Origin: a virus | Direction: 5' to 3' (one strand) | DNA length: 26,154 nucleotides | Virus record (IMG/VR): IMGVR_UViG_3300009285_000529 | Location: 1 to 26,154 of that record | In this document: piece by piece, positions 10,855 to 23,283 of the stretch | Layout of the letters: each line of letters starts with the position of its first letter | Position numbering within the stretch: position 1 is the first letter of the stretch | Made by a program: the position numbers and the translations under genes | Notes under the pieces: generated by a model | What the model was told of the DNA's origin: nothing | Databases searched by the model: none | Seen by the model: only the letters and a program-made list of their open reading frames with translations

Positions 10855-10867
10855 GATACTAAGTATC
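10855..10867. repeat. 13-bp palindrome at the methyltransferase stop / TerS leader
   Basis: GATACTAAGTATC is a perfect palindrome around a central A. It overlaps the methyltransferase stop codon. The octamer AGTGATAC occurs here (10852-10859) and again 17 bases away (10835-10842), both just upstream of TerS. It could be an operator, a TerS packaging-site element or chance. No promoter boxes are evident. Confidence 0.3.
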
Positions 10868-12226
10868 CAGCCTCGGTTCCAAACCCATGCCCTTCAGTCG
10901 TTCCAGGATGATCCCCATGCAGGCCGGCAATAGCTCGATGGCGTAGCAGATCCGGCCCTGGCGCTCGGCTGCCACGATCGTGGTACCACTTCCCGCGAAC
11001 GGCTCGTAGACGTCGCCCTCGTGGTTGCGGATCGGCCGCTCCATGCATTCGAGGGGCTTCTGCGTGGCGTGGCCTCCGTCGGCGGTCGTGTCGTGGTTAA
11101 TCTTCCAGACCGTGCTCTGGGAGTGGTCCCCGATCCACTCGGCGGTCTCGCCGTCCCGGACCGCGTAGCTGCACAAGTCGTGCGCCTGGTGGTATTCTTT
11201 AGATTGTGCCACAAGGACTTCCGGGTCCGGGTCTGGCATCCCTTTCCAGGCTGGGTCGGCCCCCTGCCGGACCGCGTACAGGCAGGGCTCGTGCTGCCAG
11301 GAGTAATGGCCACGGGCGATGGCGAACGCTGATTTGATCCAGACGATCTGGGCGCGGACTTCAAACCCGACGGCTTCCACTGAAGCCATGACCGGGACCG
11401 TCTTTAGTCCTCCGTGCCAACAGTATATCACGTTGCCGGGGAAGTGTGTCCAGGCCACCCCCCAATCAGTTGTCACATCCTCAAAGGTGGTTTTGCGGCT
11501 CGCCGCAAAACCAAGCAGCCCTTTCTTCGCGGCTTCATCCCTCCACCCGGCGTCATACTCCACGCCATATGGCGGGTCGGTCACCATCAGGTTGGGCTTC
11601 GCCCCGGCCAGCGCCCGTTTCACAACCTCCCCATCCGTGCTGTCCCCGCACACCAGCCGGTGGCTCTCTCCCGGGCGCGTCAGGCTGGGGATGGTCCACG
11701 CCTGGCCCTCTGCGGCGCCCCACTGGGCCGCCAACTCGTCAGCCCGTCCTACCTGTACGCCTGGGTCCTCTCCCTGTCCCAGGGCCCGCATCTGGCGCTC
11801 CAGGTCCTTGATGAACTTGGCGTCGAATCCGGGGATGTTCTCGCCTGCGCCGCGTAGCTGGTCCAGCAAGGCCTGGTCGTCCCACTCTGCCAGGTCGCTG
11901 GTGCCGTTGTCGGCCAGGGCCAAGCGGGTAGCCTTCAGGTCGTCGATATCCTGGTAATGGACATCGATGTGGGTCCACTGCAGAGCCTGGGCCGCAGCGT
12001 AGGTGTGGTTCCCGCAGAGGATATATCCGGTGGCCTTCTGGACGACGAGGGGCTTGAACTGTCCGAATTCAGCGAGGGAGGAGGCTATCTGGGGGATGTT
12101 GCCGCGTCTGGCGTTGTCTGGGTGTGGGATGACCGTGTCCATCCTGACCCGGTCCACCTGCACCAGGGGTGTCTGGTGGGCCTTGCCGTTGGTTTTTGTG
12201 GGGCGTTTCGCTGTGGCTGCTGGCAT
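10859..12226 (-). CDS. ParB-like domain fused to DNA methyltransferase
   Basis: The 455-residue protein has two parts. Residues about 22-110 resemble a ParB/sulfiredoxin-like N-domain (VIPHPDNARRGNIPQIASSL, then GYILCGNHTYAAAQAL). Residues about 185-455 form an amino-methyltransferase with VTDPPYGVEYD (motif IV, DPPY 217-220) before FAGSGTT (motif I, 410-416), the beta-class order. DPPY favours N6-adenine methylation. The fusion is common in phages and usually acts as an orphan methylase protecting phage DNA. The start MPAATAKRPT was chosen because the ATG 15 codons upstream lies inside the preceding gene; neither has a strong ribosome site. It sits immediately before TerS. No partner endonuclease is adjacent. 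Confidence 0.9.
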   Translation of the reverse strand: MPAATAKRPTKTNGKAHQTPLVQVDRVRMDTVIPHPDNARRGNIPQIASSLAEFGQFKPLVVQKATGYILCGNHTYAAAQALQWTHIDVHYQDIDDLKATRLALADNGTSDLAEWDDQALLDQLRGAGENIPGFDAKFIKDLERQMRALGQGEDPGVQVGRADELAAQWGAAEGQAWTIPSLTRPGESHRLVCGDSTDGEVVKRALAGAKPNLMVTDPPYGVEYDAGWRDEAAKKGLLGFAASRKTTFEDVTTDWGVAWTHFPGNVIYCWHGGLKTVPVMASVEAVGFEVRAQIVWIKSAFAIARGHYSWQHEPCLYAVRQGADPAWKGMPDPDPEVLVAQSKEYHQAHDLCSYAVRDGETAEWIGDHSQSTVWKINHDTTADGGHATQKPLECMERPIRNHEGDVYEPFAGSGTTIVAAERQGRICYAIELLPACMGIILERLKGMGLEPRLDT

Positions 12227-12231
12227 CGGGG

Positions 12232-12417
12232 TCAGGCTTTCACCCAGAACAGGTGACCGTAGCTGTTGCACTTGTACTGCTTCAGCAGCTTCCCGGCGCT
12301 GCTCACGCGGGTCTTGCCGGTGAAGTAGGCCCCCGAGTCGTCCTCGGGGCAGGTAATAGCCACGGCGGCAATGGCCAGCAGGGCCAGGACCATCAGCAGA
12401 ATGGTGGCTGTTCTCAT
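12232..12417 (-). CDS. Small membrane-anchored or exported two-Cys protein
   Basis: From the preferred ATG (12417, preceded by GAGG) the protein has 61 residues. A hydrophobic segment (ILLMVLALLAIAAVAI) is followed by a polar domain with CPEDD and YKCNSYGHLFWVKA. An upstream in-frame ATG at 12429 lies right after the terminator T-tract and lacks a ribosome site. The C-terminal pattern (CP..., GK...GKLLKQYKC..YGH) resembles small zinc-finger-like phage proteins, but only two Cys and one His are visible. It is the first gene after the terminator and probably the first late gene. Function is unknown. Confidence 0.6.
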   Translation of the reverse strand: MRTATILLMVLALLAIAAVAITCPEDDSGAYFTGKTRVSSAGKLLKQYKCNSYGHLFWVKA

Positions 12418-15279: not shown

Positions 15280-15488
15280 GTTATTTCTTTATGATATGAA
15301 CGGTGGTTCTCCAGCTCTCCCAGCAGGACGCGCATCTCCGTCCGCAGGTCGGCGATCTCCTGGTCCTGGGCCTCGATGTGGGCCATCAGGCGATGGGCCG
15401 GACAGGGGTCGTCGGGCGTGCAGGGCTCGTAGGTGCAGGCCTCCATAGCCAGGTCCTCCACCTCGGCGTGCGTCAGCTTCACAGTCAT
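15276..15488 (-). CDS. Small coiled-coil protein, ATGA-coupled to the methyltransferase
   Basis: The 70-residue protein starts MTVKLTHAEVEDLAMEACTY; its ATG overlaps the methyltransferase TGA. It has Cys at CTYEPCTPDDPCPAH (about 18-32), which could bind metal, and a C-terminal coiled coil (HIEAQDQEIADLRTEMRVLL). Its stop codon overlaps the -35 region of the 15.2 kb promoter. Function is unknown. Confidence 0.62.
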   Translation of the reverse strand: MTVKLTHAEVEDLAMEACTYEPCTPDDPCPAHRLMAHIEAQDQEIADLRTEMRVLLGELENHRSYHKEIT

Positions 15489-16669
15489 AGCGCCAGTCCT
15501 ATCGTGGTCGTGGTGCGCTGTTCGGCAAGTTTCACATATTCCGGGTTCAACTCTATCAGGATTGCCGACCGTCCAAGCTCAAGAGCGACCTTACCCGTGG
15601 TGCCGCTGCCCGCGAACGGGTCCAGGACCGTAGCCGGGACGGGGTCTGCCGGCGGGCAGTCGCAGGTGGGGGACCAGCCGGTGGTACGATCCGGGTTGGC
15701 GTTTCGCCATTCCTGGTACTTCTGTCCAGCACTTGTCGCTCCCTGAAAATCGTTGATACTTTTTGACGTTTCTGATCTCCTTGGGCGATTCTTCATATCA
15801 GGTTTCACCATCCTCCTCCTCCATTGTGCTCCGCACGCCAGGCACACTCCACGGGCGCTCGTACCCGCGAGTATGGCGCGGCGCGGGATCTCCGTGGGGA
15901 AGGTGGCAAAATGGGCGGCGGAGTACGGCTCGGGTGACAGGATCCAGTAGTTGCGGAGGTTGGCACCTGATCCATTACGGTTAGCTATTCGGATCCCTGT
16001 ATGTGGGCTGGATATGCCCCCACTCGGTTCTAATGATGGCTGTCCAGTGACAATAGACCTCGGATGGTCCAGCCCAACGTCAATTTGTTTCACCGCCTCT
16101 GCATCGTAGAAATACCTCTGGTTCTTCGCCAGCAGAAACACATGTTCCCATGCTGTCGTGGGCCGGTCGGTCACGCTCTCGGGCATCGGCGCACGCTTGC
16201 ACCAGGCGATGTCCGACCGGATATACCAGCCAGCGGCCTGGAGTGCAAGGGCCAGGCGGGAAGGCACCAGGCAGAGCTCCTTGGGCTTGAGGCCGGGAGG
16301 TATCTGGTGGCTACCCTTGTGTTGTTCGTCGCAGGCTAAATGTTTGTTGTCTGGGACCTGGTAACTTCTACTCGCTGCGTAGCTATCCCCCATGTTCACC
16401 CAGGCCGTGCCGTCGTCCCGCAACACGCGCCGGACCTCCCGAAACACCCCCACCATCCGGCAGATGTAGCACTCTCCGCATTCGTTTTTCGTGGCCCACC
16501 CGAGGCAGTCCAGGGTCTTCTCGCTGCCAAGTTCACCGTTCTCGTGGCCGATTCCATACGACCTAAGTCCCCAATACGGATGCGACGTTACGCACATGTG
16601 GACGCTCCGGTCCTCCAGCGTCCGCAGGACCTCCCGGCAGTCGCCCGTCAGGATGCGCCCGTCAGGCAT
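15485..16669 (-). CDS. Beta-class DNA methyltransferase with variant SHPY motif
   Basis: The 394-residue protein has motif IV CVTSHPYWGLRSYG (26-39) near the N-terminus and DPFAGSGTTGKVALELGRSA (350-369, motif I) near the C-terminus, the beta order seen in N4-cytosine and some N6-adenine methylases. A CLACG/CDC pair (276-280, 336-338) suggests a zinc site in the target-recognition region. The catalytic tetrapeptide is SHPY where SPPY is usual; a Pro-to-His change could reduce activity or alter substrate. Start ATG 16669 follows GCGAGGCCGCCA. It probably protects phage DNA from host restriction. An HNH nuclease gene lies two genes upstream. Confidence 0.88.
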   Translation of the reverse strand: MPDGRILTGDCREVLRTLEDRSVHMCVTSHPYWGLRSYGIGHENGELGSEKTLDCLGWATKNECGECYICRMVGVFREVRRVLRDDGTAWVNMGDSYAASRSYQVPDNKHLACDEQHKGSHQIPPGLKPKELCLVPSRLALALQAAGWYIRSDIAWCKRAPMPESVTDRPTTAWEHVFLLAKNQRYFYDAEAVKQIDVGLDHPRSIVTGQPSLEPSGGISSPHTGIRIANRNGSGANLRNYWILSPEPYSAAHFATFPTEIPRRAILAGTSARGVCLACGAQWRRRMVKPDMKNRPRRSETSKSINDFQGATSAGQKYQEWRNANPDRTTGWSPTCDCPPADPVPATVLDPFAGSGTTGKVALELGRSAILIELNPEYVKLAEQRTTTTIGLAL

Positions 16670-19109: not shown

Positions 19110-20201
19110 TTACGTTACCACCACAGGGGTTTCACGCGTTCCGTTGCGCCACGACAGGGCATCTAGAACAGTCTTGCAATCTGTATGCACGCCCTCGATA
19201 TGCCATGTTCCGATGCTCGGGTTCAGCATTTTAAGGTAGGGCCGATGTCGGCCATCTTGGAGGTCTAGCGTGATGAGGCTGTAATTCCCCCAGGTGTCCA
19301 ATTCCTTGCCGCCAAGCGTGGAGTATACCCGATCTACGCCGACCTTCCGCACGAGTTCCCGACGTACCTCAGCATTTTTCTCGGACAGGATTAATCGCGG
19401 ATCAAGGTCAGCAGTAGGAGTCTCAGCTACAATTTGCGGGACTCGTGCGCCGTTCAGGTTCCACATGGCCCACCCATCACGGCAACGAACGGAGGGACCG
19501 CCGTCCCTATGAAGGTGAAAACGGAAATCTTGTCCAGGAATAGGGACCATTTGAATTTCTGATGGCCGTTCAGAAATCACGCAAATGTTTTCATGCGGCC
19601 ACCACCAACATGACGACTTTGCAGATTCCGCCCATAGATTTAGTATTTTCTTGTCATTTTCTTCAAATGGAACGCCTATTTCAGCGCAAAACAAGAATAA
19701 AGCAATCCATCCAGAATCCATTTGTGCCCACATAGACGTAGGCACAAAATTTAATTTGTTGGCCCTCAGGCTGTCCCTCAGGTTGGCCCACAGGTTGTCC
19801 CTCAGGTTGGCCCCCAGGTTGGCCCAGAGGTTGGCCCACAGGTTGTCCCTCAGGCTGACCCCCAGGGTGGCCCTCAGGTTGGCCCCCAGGCTGGCCCTCA
19901 GGTTGGCCCCCAGGTTGGCCCTCAGGTTGTCCCTCAGGTTGTCCCCCAGGTTGGCCCCCAGGTTGTCCCACAGGTTGGCCCCCAGGTTCAAAAAAAGTTC
20001 CGAAGTCATCAGTCCATCGAACCAAAAAAACACAGGCTTATCTTTCCCGATAGCCGCATATAACCCGGTTATAGCCGCTTCTGCCTTCGGCCTATCGGCG
20101 GGTTCAGTGCAAGTTCCTACATCAAACCAGTGCTTCCTAAAAACAGGCAAGTATTTCGCCTGTTCTGGCGTCAGGCATTCGATACTCTTAGTCTGCGACA
20201 C
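19110..20201 (-). CDS. DUF6745-like protein with tetrapeptide repeat array
   Basis: GTG 20201 follows GGAGGAGGTACGAC and gives 363 residues. Residues about 72-149 are some 19 copies of a four-residue unit, [G/R/W][A/D]NL (for example GANL, WDNL, RDNL). Residues about 200-363 resemble the DUF6745 family: GGPSVRCRDGWAMW, NGARVPQIV, EVRRELVRKVG and a final TWHIEG segment. I recall that architecture from bacterial and phage genomes, where the function is unknown. The array may form a solenoid-like surface. It lies after the GDV-type small protein, another frequent neighbour of DUF6745. Alternatives are a scaffold or adaptor role. Confidence 0.75.
   Translation of the reverse strand: MSQTKSIECLTPEQAKYLPVFRKHWFDVGTCTEPADRPKAEAAITGLYAAIGKDKPVFFWFDGLMTSELFLNLGANLWDNLGANLGDNLRDNLRANLGANLRASLGANLRATLGVSLRDNLWANLWANLGANLRDNLWANLRDSLRANKLNFVPTSMWAQMDSGWIALFLFCAEIGVPFEENDKKILNLWAESAKSSCWWWPHENICVISERPSEIQMVPIPGQDFRFHLHRDGGPSVRCRDGWAMWNLNGARVPQIVAETPTADLDPRLILSEKNAEVRRELVRKVGVDRVYSTLGGKELDTWGNYSLITLDLQDGRHRPYLKMLNPSIGTWHIEGVHTDCKTVLDALSWRNGTRETPVVVT
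19758..19989. repeat. 12-bp tandem repeat array within the DUF6745-like gene
   Basis: About 19 imperfect units of the 12-mer CAGGTTGGCCCC/T are read on the plus strand. Each unit encodes one NL-containing tetrapeptide on the minus strand. Because the period is a multiple of three, all frames stay open, which creates spurious long reading frames. The array is a candidate for copy-number variation between isolates. Confidence 0.9.
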
Positions 20202-20511
20202 GTCGTACCTCCTCCGCGAAGTGGTCATACTCCCGGACCCGGCTGATCTGATATAACCCCTTCGGGAGCGCGATGGGTTTGTGTTCCTCGTGCTGGATCG
20301 CGATCCGCTTGGGCACGGACATGAACACATCCCCGGTAAGGGTGTTGCCTTGCCGAAAGATATCTACTTTCCCAAGGACCCTGTGCGCGTGACCCGTAAC
20401 TTCTCCTACGGCCAACGTGTTCTTGTGCTGGTCTGGCGCGAGCTTCTTGGCGTCTGCCGGGATTTCATCTACCGTCTGGACCAGGACATCGCCCTGCTGA
20501 TAGAGTGCCAT
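20188..20511 (-). CDS. Conserved small phage protein, GEVTGHAHR motif
   Basis: The 107-residue protein starts MALYQQGDVLVQTVDEIP with GGAGTAGACCA before the ATG. It contains LAVGEVTGHAHRVLG (about 35-49) and HEEHKPIALPKGLYQISRVR-EY (about 75-98). I recognise this 'GD(V/I)l...GE.TGHaH...HeeH..i.LP.G.Y.v...rEY' family from many phages and bacteria. It is uncharacterised and frequently sits near DUF6745 proteins. The ATG used is well supported; upstream residues of the same frame are non-conserved Arg-rich. Confidence 0.82.
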   Translation of the reverse strand: MALYQQGDVLVQTVDEIPADAKKLAPDQHKNTLAVGEVTGHAHRVLGKVDIFRQGNTLTGDVFMSVPKRIAIQHEEHKPIALPKGLYQISRVREYDHFAEEVRRVAD

Positions 20512-20842: not shown

Positions 20843-23283
20843 GCCTTCGTCGCCCTCTCCATAAGTTCGCTCTGGATCTGCCGACGGTATTTCGTCACGA
20901 TCTTCATGCCCAGCGCAGCCTGCCTCGGCGTGAGGCTCCCACGCTCTGCCAGGGAGTGCCCGATTGGTCCGTCCGCGGAGTTGTATCCCACGCCGTTCCG
21001 GTCTAGGGCGTGATCCGGGTCCAGACCCGCCAGGATCCGCAGGCACTCGTGGATGGCCTGGGCCTGATCGGGGGTGATCCTGGATGCCGCGTCGTCGATG
21101 CCCTTCCGGGTCATGCTGGCCGTGGCCGGCTCGTCGCCCTCTCTGGTCGGGAGGATCGGGATGTCGAGGATGTGCCGGCTGGTGGGGTCGTCCAGGGCTG
21201 CGTCGATGACGGTCTGTTTCGACACGATGACCTTTGCCATCCGGCAGTCGAGGCTATCCTCGAGGACCAGGTGCTGCACCAGGACGTTGTCCCTCTGGCC
21301 GATCCGGTGAAGCCGGTCCTCCGCCTGGCTCACGTTTCCCGGCACCCAATCGAGCTCGGCAAATATCACGTGGCTCGATGCCGTCAGGGTCAGGCCTACA
21401 CCAGCGGCCTGAATGTTGCCGACGAATACCCGGCACTTGGGATCACTTTGGAATCGATCAACAGATTCTTGTCTGTCTCGGATATCCATTCGACCATCTA
21501 CTCTGACCGCAATACTTTCTTGAAATTCTGAACAATCTTCTCCAGTTCTTCCAGAGTGGCATCGTGCTTGATCACGTTCGCTCTCCAGGACACAACCCAT
21601 GTGTTCTCTGGCGTATACCCCTTGGCGGGGTCCTTCCTGTCGATGGAGGGGTTCGTTGAGCAAAATCTTCTGTGCGTGAACGCTATCGGAATTTCCAGGA
21701 GTGGACATGTTTTTGGAATTACTATTTTCCTCCAATCCAGGGTGAATTCTATGCCCGCCTTCTTTGCCCTGCTCTTTGCTATTGAGCATAGTTTGTAAAC
21801 CCGACTTCGGGCTTGTCCATGTTTCATCGGCCTGCACTTCAGGCACCCCCTGGACCTCCCACTTACAAGCGTGGGTGCGCTCACTGGTTTCGTTGTTCCG
21901 CATACGCACCTGCACAGGTATCTTTTCCCTCTGTTCGTATTTCTGCTGACTGGCCCCAAGTCCTTGATCACAGTCCATTTGCCGAACACTTTTCCCGTAT
22001 GATCCACCAGTTTTCCCATTCATGGCCTCCAAAATTGAATCTACTACATCATGGTGCCACGCGAAAACTACCACCTTGCCCTCGCTCTCCAGGGCGTCCT
22101 CGATGTGGGCGACCACCTGTGGGATCTTCGCCACGGCGGTCTCGTGACGAAGTTTCGAGATCTCGGCGAACGCCACCTGCATTTCCTCCCGGAGGCGGTC
22201 CACGGCTGCCTTGTAGGTGGCCTCGTGCTCGTCCGCCTTGGCAAGCTCGACCTGGGTCCGAAGGCGCTCCGTGCGTTCCCGGTGGGCATCCCAGGCGTCC
22301 CGCTCCCGGGCGACGATCCCCGCGCAACCGTTCGCCGGAAGCTCGACCACTTGGCGGCGCTTCGGCGGAAGCTCGGTCAGGACGTCTTTCTTCAGGCGCC
22401 TGACCATGATCGTCGCTCGGAGGGTATCCTGGAGTTCGTCCAGATTGGAGGCTCCGCTGAAATCCCATCCCCATCGAGTCTTCTGGGCGTTCGCATAGCG
22501 GATCGCGTAGGGCATGAATTTGGGCCATTTCTGCGGGTCGAGGTAGTGCAGGATGGAGAAAAGCTCGGCTGGGCGGTTCACGATCGGGGTGCCGGTCAGG
22601 ACCAGCTTCCGACGTCCCTGGATGGCGTGGGCGGCCTTCGTACGCTGGGCTCGCATGTTCTTGATCTTGTGGGCCTCGTCGATCACGACCAGGTCCCACT
22701 CGATCTCCGACAGCCAGGGGAGTTTTACGAGGATGTCAAAATTGCAGATGAGTATGTCGGCGTAGTCGCCCTCGCATCGGGCCGTCCGGGACGTGGCCTG
22801 GACGATCCTGCGGGGATCGACCAACCATTTCTCCAACTCCCTCTGCCAGTTGATTTTGATGCTGGCAGGGCAGATGATCAGGACCCGCTTCAGGGTCGGG
22901 TCCGCGTTCATGATGCCGACGGCCTGGATCGTCTTGCCGAGACCAGGTTCGTCACCTATCAGGCAGGCCGGGCGTCCCATCGCGTAGGCGATACCCGCCT
23001 TCTGGAAGGGCATGTATTCCAGCCCCTCCGGGCAGGGGACGTCTACCTGGGCGTCGGTGGCCCGGCTAGCCTCGCGGGCGACGTCGCTCTGGGCCAGGCA
23101 GTCGTCCAGGATCTTCCTGGTCTCCTGGTCGGCGATGGATAGGAGCTTCGCAGCCTTCTCCGGGTCGTCGGTCCACCACATCTTCGCGGCGGGGTCCCAG
23201 CGGAACCTGGCGGCCTTGGGGTAGTCGCGGTCGTCGTACCTGCCCAGGAACAGGTACCGCTCTCCCACCTTGGTGAGGATCAT
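20839..23283 (-). CDS. SNF2-family helicase with a 170-residue in-frame insertion
   Basis: This 814-codon frame has a HARP-like N-terminus (FRWDPAAKMWWTDDPEKA, 27-44), DEPGLGKT (111-118, Walker A), DEAH (202-205), LTGTP (229-233), motif IV VVVFAWHHD (404-412), motif V AAGVGLTLTASSH (626-638) and motif VI QAEDRLHRIGQ (653-663). It belongs to the SMARCAL1-like SNF2 helicases common in phages, probably used in replication-fork or recombination work. Between motifs IV and V, residues about 422-590 are a hydrophilic stretch with no family match. It coincides with the endonuclease gene in another frame. If translated straight through, the domain carries a large surface loop. The start overlaps the upstream TGA. 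Confidence 0.85.
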   Translation of the reverse strand: MILTKVGERYLFLGRYDDRDYPKAARFRWDPAAKMWWTDDPEKAAKLLSIADQETRKILDDCLAQSDVAREASRATDAQVDVPCPEGLEYMPFQKAGIAYAMGRPACLIGDEPGLGKTIQAVGIMNADPTLKRVLIICPASIKINWQRELEKWLVDPRRIVQATSRTARCEGDYADILICNFDILVKLPWLSEIEWDLVVIDEAHKIKNMRAQRTKAAHAIQGRRKLVLTGTPIVNRPAELFSILHYLDPQKWPKFMPYAIRYANAQKTRWGWDFSGASNLDELQDTLRATIMVRRLKKDVLTELPPKRRQVVELPANGCAGIVARERDAWDAHRERTERLRTQVELAKADEHEATYKAAVDRLREEMQVAFAEISKLRHETAVAKIPQVVAHIEDALESEGKVVVFAWHHDVVDSILEAMNGKTGGSYGKSVRQMDCDQGLGASQQKYEQREKIPVQVRMRNNETSERTHACKWEVQGVPEVQADETWTSPKSGLQTMLNSKEQGKEGGHRIHPGLEENSNSKNMSTPGNSDSVHAQKILLNEPLHRQEGPRQGVYAREHMGCVLESERDQARCHSGRTGEDCSEFQESIAVRVDGRMDIRDRQESVDRFQSDPKCRVFVGNIQAAGVGLTLTASSHVIFAELDWVPGNVSQAEDRLHRIGQRDNVLVQHLVLEDSLDCRMAKVIVSKQTVIDAALDDPTSRHILDIPILPTREGDEPATASMTRKGIDDAASRITPDQAQAIHECLRILAGLDPDHALDRNGVGYNSADGPIGHSLAERGSLTPRQAALGMKIVTKYRRQIQSELMERATKA
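21498..22019 (-). CDS. HNH homing-type endonuclease nested in the helicase gene
   Basis: The 173-residue protein starts MGKLVDHTGKVFGKWTVIKD, with GGAGG six bases before the ATG. The N-terminus has a ribbon, CRCVCG (36-41) and CLKC (59-62). A helical basic linker (SRAKKAGIEFTLDW) follows, then the phage HNH signature: CPLLEIPI (105-112), NPSIDRKDPAKGYTPENTW (123-141) and SWRANVIKHDATLEELEKI (144-162). It is read in the +1 frame relative to the helicase, from helicase codon 422 to 596, and its stop overlaps the helicase VRVDGRM motif. Its GC content is lower than the surroundings by eye, suggesting recent transfer. No intron ribozyme or intein motif is visible. Confidence 0.88.
   Translation of the reverse strand: MGKLVDHTGKVFGKWTVIKDLGPVSRNTNRGKRYLCRCVCGTTKPVSAPTLVSGRSRGCLKCRPMKHGQARSRVYKLCSIAKSRAKKAGIEFTLDWRKIVIPKTCPLLEIPIAFTHRRFCSTNPSIDRKDPAKGYTPENTWVVSWRANVIKHDATLEELEKIVQNFKKVLRSE

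Follow-up and report, generated by a model that had tools for sequence, protein, structure and literature searches.

An HNH endonuclease gene lying out of frame within a DNA methylase gene, whose own frame remains open, has been described in a mycobacteriophage as the ShiLan domain (Arsenault, Gosselin and Gogarten 2025, PMC11855218), and an element of this type is also present in Applejack gp54/gp55 (PMC12613952). A second published case is the hidden HNH of Pacc40 gp60, a helicase-methylase (PMC11855218). For the mycobacteriophage methylase elements, the splicing of the insert and the route by which the endonuclease is translated were left open in 2025. HNH homing endonuclease genes inside conserved phage genes are further exemplified by mobE in nrdA of Aeh1 and mobA in gene 60 of T4 (PMC2988022).

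The window, i.e. the whole 26,154-nt stretch of DNA analysed here, is an IMG/VR-type viral record of 26 kb, in which genes for the large terminase and the major head protein are also present. Its SNF2-family helicase is encoded by an ORF without any internal stop (phrog_62 in PHROGs) that contains, at an offset of 1264 (1 mod 3), a second ORF matching the PHROGs endonuclease families phrog_3322, phrog_374 and phrog_1035 (Table 1). ORFs, Pfam and PHROGs therefore agree with the first-pass annotation, which had reported an HNH gene nested out of frame in a SNF2 helicase gene with both frames open. The helicase retains the family-invariant residues (26 homologues compared) on both sides of the insert, and the HNH protein is modelled with confidence (mean pLDDT 88.8), its best Foldseek match being PacI (3ldy, E=5.8e-3).

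Table 1. Coordinates of the nested genes and of their features in the window
Feature	Position	Strand	Remarks
SNF2-family helicase gene, 814 codons	20839..23283	-	Pfam SNF2-rel_dom and Helicase_C; open across the insert; motifs intact on either side
Insert in helicase gene, codons 425-591, 501 nt	21511..22011	-	missing from 137/139 homologous loci; borders +/- ~3 codons
HNH endonuclease gene, 173 codons	21498..22019	-	out of frame in helicase gene; start and stop in or against host codons; family-invariant residues kept
HNH catalytic core (C105-P106 ... SIDR ... KGY ... N139 ... RAN148 ... K151)	21567..21707	-	invariant or near-invariant columns in 26 relatives; mostly gone from L266
N-terminal zinc-ribbon-like Cys cluster of HNH protein (C36, C38, C40, C59, C62)	21834..21914	-	
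Shine-Dalgarno-like GGAGG	22026..22030	-	6 nt before HNH ATG, inside helicase codons Leu-Glu-Ala

Once residues 425-591 (167 codons) are removed, the helicase aligns without gaps to the homologues L003 and L004. Uninterrupted homologues differ in length by just about -1 to +4 residues at the insert site, so the borders can be placed to within about 3 codons. This alignment with insert-free homologues, proposed at first pass as the way to define the borders, bears out the initial reading that the insert adds a multiple of three and has no stop in the helicase frame. The GC content is 50% in the insert versus 63% in the flanks. Furthermore, the HNH start codon overlaps the N-G codons of helicase 'MNGK' and the HNH TAG stop overlaps the V-D codons of 'VRVDG', within the VRVDGRM coding region as originally described, so that the element has almost no DNA beyond the endonuclease gene, also as originally described. 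In the AlphaFold model, helicase residues 425-587 have a pLDDT below 50 and lie between a helix (411-423) and a strand (591-595), the rest being well modelled. The insert site is, according to the model, a surface loop whose length already varies among homologues, and the suggestion that the insert is tolerated as a loop is favoured, this loop being predicted to be disordered.

The same insert was also looked for at the same site elsewhere, as had been advised, and two further copies were found: L285 in a helicase scan and L266 when genomes were scanned with the HNH family. Three insertions are thus known, two of them with an intact HNH. A long insert between the helicase halves was detected only in L266 and L285 among the 139 loci with both halves, which were screened solely for a long gap at this place. 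The inserts of the window, L266 and L285 measure 501, 414 and 507 nt, respectively, each length being divisible by three and each host frame open. The L285 contig is viral and 69 kb long; its host frame is open over 852 codons and its HNH is intact (53-56% identical). L266 is a contig of a Candidatus Binatia bin, with the same helicase and, at the shared site, a related insert; as part of a metagenome-assembled bacterial bin, it may be a prophage or a stray virus. Most of its HNH core has been lost through a net deletion of 87 nt (a multiple of three) and a stop, and its host frame is open, as would be predicted for a helicase that continues to be required and is translated across the insert. 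A homologous segment in helicases devoid of an endonuclease gene, held at first pass to speak against a mobile element, was not encountered among the 139 loci, L266 with its broken HNH being a decayed copy. The L266 helicase gene (L266:31-3549) bears two mobile elements, namely an intein-like insert at Walker A and the decayed HNH insert in the loop between motifs IV and V.

Comparison of the copies indicates which of the two frames is constrained. Indeed, differences between the window and L285 number 62, 57 and 110 at HNH codon positions 1, 2 and 3, and the identity is 56% in the HNH frame versus 20% in register in the host frame; across the three copies, it amounts to 48-56% and 20-31%, respectively. 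Since both measures favour the HNH frame, the HNH protein is the conserved product, and the host-frame peptide is, from these alignments, unconstrained except for its lack of stops. An intein, or another excision at the protein level, would likewise leave the host frame open across the insert, and intein-like inserts are known at the Walker A motif of homologues. However, the low identity of the host-frame peptide among the three copies, with the constraint in the other frame, speaks against this explanation, intein motifs are not seen by eye, and residues 425-591 contain no Pfam intein/HINT domain and are modelled as disordered; excision at the protein level is thus extremely improbable.

The openness of the helicase frame was evaluated by synonymous codon permutation within the HNH gene, counting the stops generated in the helicase frame. 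In the window, a mean of 6 stops is expected and 0 are seen (P(0) 0.00014-0.00028), close to the chance of about 3 in 10,000 calculated initially; P is 0.016 when codon usage is instead taken from the helicase flanks. A helicase-frame stop requires an HNH codon ending in T before AA, AG or GA, and such T-ending codons number 0/44 in these contexts versus 21/94 elsewhere in the window HNH (Fisher 1.4e-4), the pooled HNH relatives giving 412/1107 versus 964/2178. In addition, all 88 free-standing HNH relatives in the phage/viral sets examined have at least 2 stops in both alternative frames over the match. The test in the window is post hoc, which is why independent copies at the same site matter: in L285, P(0) is 1e-4 and T-ending codons number 0/35 versus 30/100, and the window and L285 pooled give 0/79 versus 51/194 elsewhere (Fisher 2.9e-9). 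Third positions differ at 110/167 between these two copies, so that their codon choice is largely independent. The openness of L266 is less striking by permutation (P ~0.02), and, this copy having been noticed through its open alternative frame, it is not an unbiased test. The insert-frame peptide showed no unusual hydrophilicity compared with synonymous shuffles (P 0.55), hence selection is visible on stop-freeness alone and not on composition. The open helicase frame is not due to chance, and stops are selected against. If the insert is retained in the helicase protein, selection would indeed remove or prevent stops in this frame. An alternative frame is also open in three GC-rich relatives (L270, L274 and L233), apparently through chance, and these have no recognisable host gene.

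Selection against stops counts against mechanisms that leave the insert untranslated in the helicase frame. Phage group I introns commonly carry HNH genes, and the insert is site-specific and mobile-looking, as would be the case if it was a group I or II self-splicing intron harbouring an HNH gene and if the helicase frame was open by mere coincidence. This explanation is nevertheless very unlikely: there was no Rfam match at E values up to 10, the RNA fold z-score of -0.72 gives no structure signal, the HNH codons fill the insert and leave no room for a catalytic core, and avoiding stops in two diverged copies would be pointless if the RNA was spliced. RNA removal, initially listed as an alternative, is consequently disfavoured, and the early remark that neither an intron core nor an intein motif is visible agrees with Rfam, folding, Pfam and the structural model. 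The known bypass gap of T4 is about one tenth of the ~500 nt concerned here. Ribosome bypassing was the other alternative listed, and T4 gene 60 is likewise associated, as a split gene, with a homing endonuclease gene, mobA (PMC2988022), but this tenfold difference in length, the lack of a stop after a possible take-off site in the helicase frame, and the avoidance of stops in a stretch that need not be stop-free if bypassed, make it scarcely credible. Finally, the insertion could be genuine and the helicase non-functional, the open frame being a relic or luck, given that the helicase activity is a predicted one. The motifs and family-invariant residues kept on either side, the stop avoidance repeated in L285 and the host frame kept by L266 after HNH loss render this very unlikely. 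It is therefore very probable that the insert is a homing HNH element, the host frame of which is read through and which is kept in the helicase as a disordered loop.

As regards the expression of the endonuclease, GGAGG is found upstream of only one of the 33 ATGs of the helicase gene, that of HNH. Putative ribosome-binding sites are also present in the other copies (GGAGG-6 nt-ATG in L266 and AAGGAG-7 nt-ATG in L285). The sequence ATGGAGG occurs at the same place in the uninvaded L002 and L131, so the putative ribosome-binding site is apparently supplied by host codons. The HNH protein is thus probably made by internal initiation from a Shine-Dalgarno formed by helicase codons.

The HNHs of the window, L285 and L266 form one clade (100/92), separate from 37 relatives, the closest HNH outside the clade being the free-standing L046. 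Their three host helicases are scattered in the helicase tree (3 changes), which is deep and partly unsupported, and each has a closer uninvaded relative. The discordance between the HNH and helicase trees suggests horizontal movement; a single old gain followed by many losses may also account for it, the depth and partial lack of support of the helicase tree leaving room for this scenario. Horizontal movement accords with the initial proposal of a mobile element that entered a conserved gene in frame, which is upheld by three insertions at the same site, a single HNH clade, selection against stops and the decayed copy in L266. No DNA-level relatives were found among phage records, and a plasmid search gave a single weak HNH protein match. 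HNH matches annotated over other genes (muut ligase, the 'dUTPase' of Rosita and phiCDKH02, the HTVC119P polymerase and others) were free-standing or mis-annotated rather than nested.

Overall, the insert would be a site-specific homing element, comprising little beyond its HNH endonuclease gene. Its targets would be SNF2-helicase genes of phages, and its insertion point a loop in the second RecA domain that varies in length and connects the helix following motif IV to the strand after it. The HNH protein probably cuts or nicks insert-free helicase alleles, the repair of which would then copy the element in, while the helicase frame would be read straight through and a disordered loop of ~167 residues would stay in the protein. 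Cleavage and homing are predicted from the endonuclease family and its distribution, and the HNH protein is presumably translated and the loop-bearing helicase presumably active.

Elsewhere in the window, an ORF with a DUF6745 domain (19110-20330, minus strand) contains an array of a 12-nt unit repeated 19 times (19758-19988), which encodes four-residue repeats such as NLGA/NLRD and in which the remaining frames are open as well. Two DNA methylase genes are also encoded (10859-12271 and 15485-16669), one of them with a ParB-like N-terminal part. A second nested HNH was looked for in the methylase gene at 15485-16669, which is longer than its profile, and none was seen.

Like the window element, the ShiLan domain is an out-of-frame HNH that fills its insert, whose length is divisible by three and whose host frame is open, and no intron or intein was found; its host-frame peptide has no confident predicted fold and its distribution is scattered. 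It differs by its host, a methylase, by its insertion between conserved residues instead of in a length-variable helicase loop, and by its GTG start with no detectable ribosome-binding site (PMC11855218), whereas the window has a clear Shine-Dalgarno. The Applejack HNH has no BLASTP match with the window HNH. Stops are also avoided in ShiLan-type elements by permutation (P(0) 7e-4 in Applejack and 4e-4 in L264, whose near-identical HNHs count as one case). In another ShiLan-type methylase insert (L265:2110-3300), an in-frame deletion has removed the HNH core and the methylase frame is open, which parallels L266.

Pacc40 gp60 likewise has an out-of-frame HNH within the helicase part of the gene, only distantly related to that of the window (27% over 131 aa), and PacI serves as structural comparison for both (PMC11855218). 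A second copy of this type of insertion was found in L184. The Pacc40 host nevertheless belongs to another family (weak match to the window helicase), the relative frame is different and the site, by inspection, precedes the second helicase domain. Aeh1 mobE and T4 mobA also lie inside conserved phage genes with host function kept, as shown for Aeh1 nrdA, but these genes are split into separate polypeptides, unlike the continuous host frame of the window; these insertions are related to the window element in origin and not in architecture. Lastly, the intein-like inserts found at Walker A in homologous helicases of phages (L032, L033 and L266) are mobile, occur in the same helicase family and keep the host frame open, yet differ in site, in being read in the host frame and in the protein splicing that is expected of them. 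L032 is Erythrobacter phage vB_EliS-L02 and L033 Brevundimonas phage Domovoi, their genes being annotated as helicase / RNA polymerase-associated protein.

In summary, the sequence comparisons identify the window element as a further member of the ShiLan/Pacc40 kind, with a new host gene, site and HNH clade and a putative internal ribosome-binding site. It is likely that these elements represent a class of homing elements devoid of RNA or protein splicing, in which the same DNA encodes a conserved endonuclease and a stop-free host frame, the loop being carried by the host protein and the ribosome-binding site being one that host codons can supply; the life cycle of this class (invasion, dual-frame maintenance, and disappearance of the endonuclease core but not of the loop) would be visible across the window, L285 and L266. 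Beyond methylases and mycobacteriophages, the present case provides quantitative support for a host frame selected to stay open, and it indicates conservation of the endonuclease frame rather than the host frame, as well as a putative ribosome-binding site, formed by host codons, in front of the HNH gene. It suggests that hidden HNH elements are more widespread, and that they can be found as stop-avoiding inserts in conserved phage genes.
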